A stretch of DNA of 26,485 nucleotides from a virus. The DNA lies in the IMG/VR virus record IMGVR_UViG_3300030106_000318, positions 1 to 26,485 of that record; one strand, 5' to 3'. Positions 2,761 through 24,314 of this stretch are shown in pieces. Position 1 is the stretch's first letter; each line of letters starts with the position of its first letter. The notes under the pieces were generated by a model, which was given only the letters and a program-made list of their open reading frames with translations, ran no database searches and had not been told where the DNA came from. Both the position numbers and the translations under genes were made by a program.

Positions 2761-3243
2761 ATGGAACTAGAAACATATGATTGTACTATCAAAGGATTAA
2801 AAGATATTCATGATGCTGAGAATCCAGTTAAATACTGGTTAGCAGTAGATCTTGATGATGGTACAGAAAGAAGATTGTTTGTAGAACAAAGTTGCAGACA
2901 AATGAATAAAGGTGATCGTATTAAAGTACATGGTTATAAAATTCGCAAAGCAGGATCTATAAATCAAACTTGTACAAAGATAGATCATTTAACAGGTGAT
3001 AAGCATGTAGAAAGTATAAATAATTCACCTGCACCAAAGGTTTCTAATGGTCAAACTGTTAATAATATAAGTGCTTCAGTAGACCAATGGAAAGAAAAAT
3101 ACAGATTGACTATGTCTAATTTACTTAGTTCGGTTCTCCCTTCTAAGCAAATAGAAGAATATGATACTGTATTTGTTGAGATAGATAAGTTATCTAGAAA
3201 GATACTTAAAGCTCAATATGATGGGGATGAAGCCCCATTTTAA
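2761..3243 (+). CDS. OB-fold single-stranded DNA-binding protein candidate
   Basis: The open frame extends back to 2698, but AAGGAGA at 2748-2754 sits 6 nt before the ATG at 2761, giving 160 residues. The first half has strand-rich sequence compatible with an OB fold (YWLAVDLDDGTERRLFVEQ, then MNKGDRIKVHGYKI). The middle is a polar linker (KHVESINNSPAPKVSNG). The last half is helical and the protein ends in DGDEAPF, an acidic tip with terminal Pro-Phe like the DDDIPF tail by which bacterial SSB recruits partner enzymes. T7 gp2.5 also ends in an acidic Phe tail. I infer an SSB-like role with the nuclease just upstream. The family itself is not recognised with certainty. Confidence 0.6.
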   Translation: MELETYDCTIKGLKDIHDAENPVKYWLAVDLDDGTERRLFVEQSCRQMNKGDRIKVHGYKIRKAGSINQTCTKIDHLTGDKHVESINNSPAPKVSNGQTVNNISASVDQWKEKYRLTMSNLLSSVLPSKQIEEYDTVFVEIDKLSRKILKAQYDGDEAPF

Positions 3244-3251
3244 GCATGTTT

Positions 3252-3336
3252 AACCTATATTAGTTAGGTTCGACCCAAAAGCATCCCAGGTTTTAATGTT
3301 AAAGACATCTCCTACCTGGGGTGCTGAAAGAAAGGA
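3252..3336 (+). promoter_or_regulatory. Structured RNA leader with possible SD-sequestering pseudoknot
   Basis: The 102-nt gap between two plus-strand genes holds two stems. AACCTA (3252-3257) pairs with TAGGTT (3265-3270) across a 7-nt loop. GCATCCCAGG (3281-3290) pairs with CCTGGGGTGC (3315-3324), nine Watson-Crick pairs and one G-U. Inside the second loop, ATGT (3296-3299) can pair with ACAT (3305-3308). TCCT (3310-3313) in that loop is complementary to AGGA (3333-3336) of the Shine-Dalgarno for the gene at 3346. Neither stem has a following T-tract, so this is not a plain terminator. It matches no riboswitch consensus I could recall. A cis-acting translational switch or processed leader is inference. 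Confidence 0.4.
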
Positions 3337-3345
3337 TAAAATAAT

Positions 3346-3534
3346 ATGAAAAGATATAAAATATCAGTTATGGAAAAAGGATATGTTATTAAAGAAAATT
3401 ATATAATGGCAGAAGATGAAGATGATGCACATGAAAGATTTTATAATTATGAAGAATTAGACAATCCTGAATGGAAAATAGTGGAAAGTAAGATGAAAGA
3501 GGATAATGTAGAAATAACAGAGGAGAAGAAATAA
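3346..3534 (+). CDS. Small acidic protein, paralogue of the 4064-4252 product
   Basis: A 62-residue protein opening with MKRYKISVMEKG, a beta-like segment, then AEDEDDAHERF (a helix), then PEWKIVES, and a charged tail. This order (K-x-YK strand, 'AE-x-ED-x-A-x-E-x-F' helix, then 'W-x-(I/V)' strand) is repeated in the 62-residue product at 4064-4252, so the two look like duplicated copies. The fold resembles small DpnD/PcfM-like phage proteins, a comparison made only by eye. AAAGGA (3331-3336) is 9 nt upstream, and that site may be masked by the leader structure before it. Function unknown. Confidence 0.6.
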   Translation: MKRYKISVMEKGYVIKENYIMAEDEDDAHERFYNYEELDNPEWKIVESKMKEDNVEITEEKK

Positions 3535-24287: not shown

Positions 24288-24314
24288 AGGGGAGTAGTTT
24301 GAGGTTACTCCCCT
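24288..24314 (-). terminator. Strong hairpin after the capsid gene
   Basis: AGGGGAGTA (24288-24296) and TACTCCCCT (24306-24314) form a perfect 9-bp stem (a tenth G-T pair is possible) with a 9-nt loop, 14 nt beyond the capsid stop on the minus strand. The bases after it (TTGTATC) are only weakly T-rich, so termination would be partial. T7-like phages place their main terminator in the same spot, after the capsid gene, which lets capsid mRNA exceed that of later genes. Confidence 0.5.

Follow-up and report, generated by a model that had tools for sequence, protein, structure and literature searches.

In phage lambda, the sib retroregulator is a hairpin that lies behind a gene and acts on the upstream message, and the CcsR small RNAs carry a C-rich loop motif resembling an anti-Shine–Dalgarno sequence; the ssb element described here can be likened to the former and, in its loop, to the latter. 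In phage T4, according to the accessible part of PMC3014915, the gene 32 message has a conserved RNase E site near its stop codon and is unusually stable, more so than any other T4 message, which makes it a precedent for a 3′-end role at ssb. Our analysis concerns a 26,485-nt stretch of viral DNA (positions 1 to 26,485 of IMG/VR record IMGVR_UViG_3300030106_000318; hereafter the window), in which a structure that is real, conserved, and outside any Rfam family follows an ssb gene. The best explanation, in which we place about even confidence, is that its hairpin is part of a structured 3′-end module of the phage ssb message, serving in termination or in 3′-end protection.

The upstream gene (2761–3243, plus strand) encodes a 160-aa protein with an OB-fold N-terminal domain, a helical C-terminal part, and an acidic tail, ...DGDEAPF. 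SSB proteins end in such an acidic ...PF tail. The AlphaFold model of the product has a pLDDT of 71.7 and a pTM of only 0.39; when its OB part was compared with solved structures, bacterial SSB/PriB chains scored best among the matches listed (Z 11.2 to 9.7), and the top match, 4dam_G (Z 11.2, rmsd 2.2 over 80 residues), places it within the OB fold. The Pfam SSB family, PF00436, matched neither the window protein nor the proteins of four related records, and the upstream gene had no Pfam match at all and no convincing PHROG match. We therefore name the gene ssb on the basis of an OB-type fold like that of SSB/PriB together with the acidic ...PF tail, and as modeled it is an OB-fold SSB. It is preceded by a gene at 1958–2722, for which a single query found no relatives and a profile found 192 (80 kept), and followed by an open reading frame (ORF) at 3346–3534 on the plus strand that encodes 62 aa of no family and is replaced by a different gene in relatives. 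The window also encodes an HNH/DUF968 protein, and its head genes lie on the opposite strand. In INPHARED, where near records may be omitted, there was no relative of ssb, of gene 1958–2722 (called a nuclease), or of a 1075-aa protein; the sole match was the capsid protein, closest to that of Pelagibacter phage HTVC106P (58% identical), a phage in which no ssb relative rose above chance (best E 0.16). Because relatives other than the capsid protein are absent from INPHARED, the host is only a guess. Following the gene for the major head protein, which is on the minus strand, an inverted repeat at 24290–24312, GGGGAGTA..TACTCCCC, gives one of the window's most stable folds, and HTVC106P carries GGGGGATTACTCCCCC near its head gene. 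The accessible part of a paper on freshwater SAR11 phages (PMC6811365) does not mention hairpins, and that of a paper on Pelagibacter RNAs (PMC2704228) does not mention phages.

Two hairpins on the plus strand occupy the gap from the end of ssb at 3243 to the start of the next ORF at 3346. Hairpin 1 (3252–3270) is a 6-bp stem, AACCTA/TAGGTT, formed by 3252–3257 with 3265–3270, and was not seen as such in close relatives. The main hairpin (3280–3325) has a 12-bp stem, 3280–3291 with 3314–3325, which includes one G–U pair and encloses an inner 5-bp stem, ATGT(T)/(G)ACAT (3296–3300 with 3304–3308), and a C-rich bulge, CTCCT (3309–3313), that contains TCCT (3310–3313). Downstream, AGGA at 3333–3336 forms the Shine–Dalgarno sequence of ORF 3346, and ACCC (3273–3276) and GGGT (3319–3322) are candidate partners in an alternative pairing. 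Every pairing element listed in the earlier note is thus found in the sequence where it was placed, and the stem that it had described as 10 bp long (3281–3290 with 3315–3324) is present but is in fact 12 bp. Folding of 3244–3360 gave −32 kcal/mol, compared with −18.6 ± 3.3 for 200 shuffles (z −4.06), none of which equaled it, and the pairs of the main stem had probabilities of 0.96–1.0. In a scan of 85-nt stretches at 10-nt steps along both strands of the whole window, 3241–3325 on the plus strand was the second most stable (−31.0, versus −25.7 on the minus strand). The Rfam 15 covariance models, riboswitches included, gave no match in the window at gathering score; at E ≤ 5, the gap region gave TD-2 (26.4 of 48.7 bits, overlapping the end of ssb) and lesser matches, all below gathering. 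Nor did Rfam match in 13 relatives, or the element of lineage L120 at E ≤ 1. The covariance search thus agrees with the original suggestion that no known riboswitch consensus fits. The exact pattern AAAAGCATCCCAGGT occurred in 35 stretches of IMG/VR, in none of which was the hairpin found by eye, and the open-licence literature yielded no described element of this type.

Profile searches of IMG/VR gave 172 ssb loci, with some contigs contributing more than one. Two loci were of insufficient length, and the remaining 170 reduced to 84 distinct 3′UTRs and then to 27 clusters, which share ancestry, so that counts over clusters or lineages are not independent. Close relatives have one hairpin of 11–16 bp right after the ssb stop codon, with TCCCC, ATCC, or CTCCC in its loop. 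Larger groups have two, A and then B, where hairpin A combines a short stem with a loop containing ACTCCCT or TCTCCCTCGAGTTAG and hairpin B has a stem of 9–15 bp. The exception is L058–L060 (three distinct sequences), in which there is no gap behind ssb and no element. The gene after the element differs among lineages and is of many types, with ssb constant before it. The pattern CTCCC..GTTAG occurred 94 times inside ssb 3′UTRs and nowhere else in 981 kb of partly redundant loci, and an unrestricted IMG/VR scan for two such loop words put 82 of 124 matches behind ssb; the contexts of the remaining 42 are unlike each other and look like scattered chance, one being, by eye, a truncated ssb contig. 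In a short-pattern scan of genome contigs, the matches listed were scattered across many phyla. Across these loci, it is the upstream ssb gene, not the downstream gene, with which the element is associated, and to call it a leader of the downstream gene, as had been done, is misleading. Two side observations concern the same loci. Among the window protein (2761–3243) and those of L120, L135, and L168, the same C-terminal part, with EKYRLTMSNL, occurs, but in the big clade it is joined to clearly different N-terminal sequence, as in an SSB with an exchangeable N terminus. In addition, GTTAGTTA(A) or TTAGTTAG, which puts a stop codon in each of the three frames, is a recurrent part of the element in the window, L039, L052, L069, and L135; GTTAGTTA has 41 copies inside ssb 3′UTRs and 60 elsewhere in the same loci.

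The pattern of change within the stems is that expected of a selected RNA. Among four alignable close relatives, 48 of 48 pair cells hold and three pairs have changed on both sides, and in the big clade (17 sequences) 99.3% of 306 cells are paired, with 10 double-changed cells as against a shuffled mean of 2.0. Compensatory changes, which the earlier note had proposed looking for, are therefore present in relatives, and outside the gapless lineage L058–L060 the stems are neither absent nor broken. The fold of the UTR has z ≤ −2 in 21 of the 27 clusters, the six above that value being L115, L133, L168, L172, L185, and L208. In the stems of 27 representatives, found by a procedure that treats G–U and A–C alike, there are 57 G–U and 7 A–C pairs, a count that takes in some weak second-choice stems and related lineages, so that its P is not a true probability. 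Since G–U lies far above A–C, the plus-strand RNA is indicated as the selected molecule, and by this comparison the element is selected as plus-strand RNA. The same imbalance, pointing as it does to one RNA strand, argues against an element acting at the DNA level, either a cruciform or a replication start site; the hairpins do stand beside a likely replication gene, and we nonetheless consider such a role barely credible.

A further hairpin, C (3221–3238, plus strand), is formed by ATGGGG/CCCCAT within the last ssb codons and is followed by TTTTAA, the U-run reaching the stop codon. Pairing holds in 98.8% of the 84 cells from 14 distinct homologous tails, and nine cells have changed on both sides, all of them at codon third positions. 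Hairpin C is found in lineages whose SSB ends in DG....F (in one, NG....F), with homologs in L115, L079, L168, L172, L134, L185, and others that are followed by TTTT or TTCT; L058 breaks one of its pairs. Judged by this covariation, the structured module extends into the ssb gene by way of hairpin C.

According to the earlier note, the element may be a cis-acting translational switch of ORF 3346, in which TCCT would mask the AGGA of the ribosome site through a pseudoknot and pairing of ACCC with GGGT would provide a competing state. The 4-nt TCCT/AGGA match does exist in the window, and L044 has a 7-nt match, ATCCTTT/AAAGGAT; when the 23-nt loop is shuffled by mononucleotides, TCCT still appears in 8% of cases. 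Duplexes between the loop and the downstream Shine–Dalgarno sequence were compared in 26 lineages (cluster L060 left out), with 12-nt, partly hand-chosen pieces around the motif as loop windows and the first ATG of an ORF of at least 40 codons behind the motif as the next start, which in L075, L175, and L162 falls inside hairpin B. Cognate pairing proved no better than mismatched pairing (−3.37 versus −3.55 kcal/mol, P 0.72), also in the nine closest types (−5.17 versus −5.25, P 0.54). Moreover, GG is missing from the 20 nt before the chosen ATG in 12 of the 26 lineages and the loop is nevertheless kept, and in the window the Shine–Dalgarno sequence of ORF 3346 is predicted to be mostly open (unpaired probability of AGGA, 0.56–0.99). 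The complementarity of TCCT and AGGA therefore stands, but the masking that it was thought to bring about does not. The ACCC:GGGT pairing is only a sequence match, and forcing it raises the fold from −29.0 to −15.9 kcal/mol, ~13 kcal/mol uphill, which removes the proposed pair of mutually exclusive states. Control of ORF 3346 by ribosome masking is thus not supported, and we regard it as highly improbable. As a separate observation, in L175, L163, L203, and L075 the likely start of the next gene (MITQCKNC.., MVTQCKIC.., MAAQCKLC.., and MVAQCIKC.., respectively) lies inside the loop or 3′ arm of hairpin B and has no Shine–Dalgarno sequence; with its start codon so placed, hairpin B may hide that start.

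Nearly every lineage retains the C-rich loop. In 80 of 84 distinct UTRs, TCC[CT] occurs no more than 67 nt from the stop codon, and in 65 of 84 CTCCC occurs no more than 75 nt from it; L185 lacks TCC[CT] in its first 75 nt. Because shuffled UTRs contain TCC[CT] in 22–91% of cases, its presence alone means little; its presence inside a stem as long as that observed is rare (≤5% of shuffles) in 15 of the 27 clusters. The loop word is retained while stems are replaced between lineages, which makes a partner in trans likely, and the C-rich loop probably contacts something in trans, be it protein or RNA. Were the partner RNA, the hairpin might be freed from the ssb message as a 3′UTR-derived small RNA, whose anti-Shine–Dalgarno-like loop pairs with phage or host Shine–Dalgarno sequences. 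The near-universal loop and the occurrence of a hairpin with a terminator in one clade suit this idea, as does the window loop, TCTCCT, an exact complement of the AGGAGA present before several genes of the same phage, and there is an alphaproteobacterium in which RNase E is known to cut small RNAs from 3′UTRs (accessible part of PMC8625941). Yet AGGAG would be matched better by a sequence other than the family consensus CTCCC, TCC[CT] is the common word noted above, and the window lacks a terminator. Pairing of the loop with the Shine–Dalgarno sequence of ssb itself was rejected, as it shows no coevolution (cognate −6.53 versus mismatched −6.29 kcal/mol, P 0.17). A small RNA of this kind is accordingly possible but unlikely. 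A stronger proposition is more doubtful still: that the whole family encodes a viral regulatory RNA, released from the 3′ end of ssb, which presents an anti-Shine–Dalgarno loop on a changing stem and would lower translation of ssb or other messages in trans. Were the partner protein, it could by analogy be SSB, binding an autoregulatory operator as T4 gp32 does on its own message. The tight linkage of element and ssb and the T4 precedent (PMC3014915 and PMC535899, in their accessible parts) would fit, whereas in T4 the operator precedes gene 32 and sits at its start site, and the present element lies 3′ of ssb; we think such an operator improbable.

The two-hairpin layout raises the further alternative of transcription attenuation through competition between the folding of hairpins A and B. 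A terminator occurs in one clade of this layout, and cognate duplexes between loop A and the arm of B are strong in L115 and L162, but across 18 lineages loop A, again taken as a 12-nt, partly hand-chosen piece, paired with the 5′ arm of hairpin B no better in cognate than in mismatched combinations (−5.86 versus −6.12, P 0.76), and the window, with its single large hairpin, lacks a terminator. Attenuation is therefore very unlikely, and none of the proposed long-range pairings coevolves. The hairpin B loop of L133, L172, and L081 carries a Shine–Dalgarno-like AAAGGAG, AAGGA, or AAAGGA complementary to loop A (5–7 nt, by eye); kissing between the two loops was seen by eye in these three lineages but not generally.

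We return to the preferred reading, that of a 3′-terminal module in the ssb message. In the L120-like clade, hairpin B has a 13-bp stem followed by U5 (TTTTT) and is by sequence an intrinsic terminator, and terminator-like text, GCC..TTTTT, occurs in 34 of 84 distinct UTRs. The main hairpin of the window (3280–3325) lacks a following U-tract and drew no terminator call, so it does not qualify as an intrinsic terminator. A 3′-end role is favored because ssb is followed by the element while the next gene changes and because one clade has a terminator. We propose that the module both defines where the ssb message ends and shields that end: in some lineages, transcription would terminate at the module, and in others, the window included, the message would have a processed end capped by the hairpin. 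For the window, with no U-tract behind its main hairpin, protection of a processed end is what we infer. SSB could thereby be produced abundantly, whichever of the small exchangeable genes comes next. The conserved C-rich loop is not explained by a pure terminator or stabilizer.

Thus, in uncultured aquatic phages forming a large group, the ssb message ends in a structured RNA that no Rfam family covers and that persists through changes in its stems, its second hairpins, and the genes downstream. Should the loop have a partner in trans, phages that are still beyond cultivation would provide an RNA contact that is well defined and open to testing; should it have none, the element is a clear illustration of how a phage can insulate a gene in high demand from exchangeable neighbors. 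As in the T4 gene 32 message (PMC3014915, accessible part), an SSB gene would have a message under posttranscriptional control, but the structured operator of T4 is a 5′ pseudoknot, whereas the structure conserved in these phages follows ssb, and its contact with protein or RNase is hypothetical. The 13-bp hairpin with U5 in the L120 clade is like the intrinsic terminators between phage genes, from which the window and many other lineages differ in having no U-tract, and the element differs further in the extra hairpin with a C-rich loop that precedes. The CcsR1–4 small RNAs of Rhodobacter, which derive from a 3′UTR, share the location behind a coding gene (PMC8625941, accessible part) but have a different loop sequence and four copies rather than one, and the present element is known from sequence alone. 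In contrast to lambda sib, neither RNase III cleavage nor a negative effect is indicated for the ssb element. Taken together, these comparisons place the element as a variant of known phage message-end structures.
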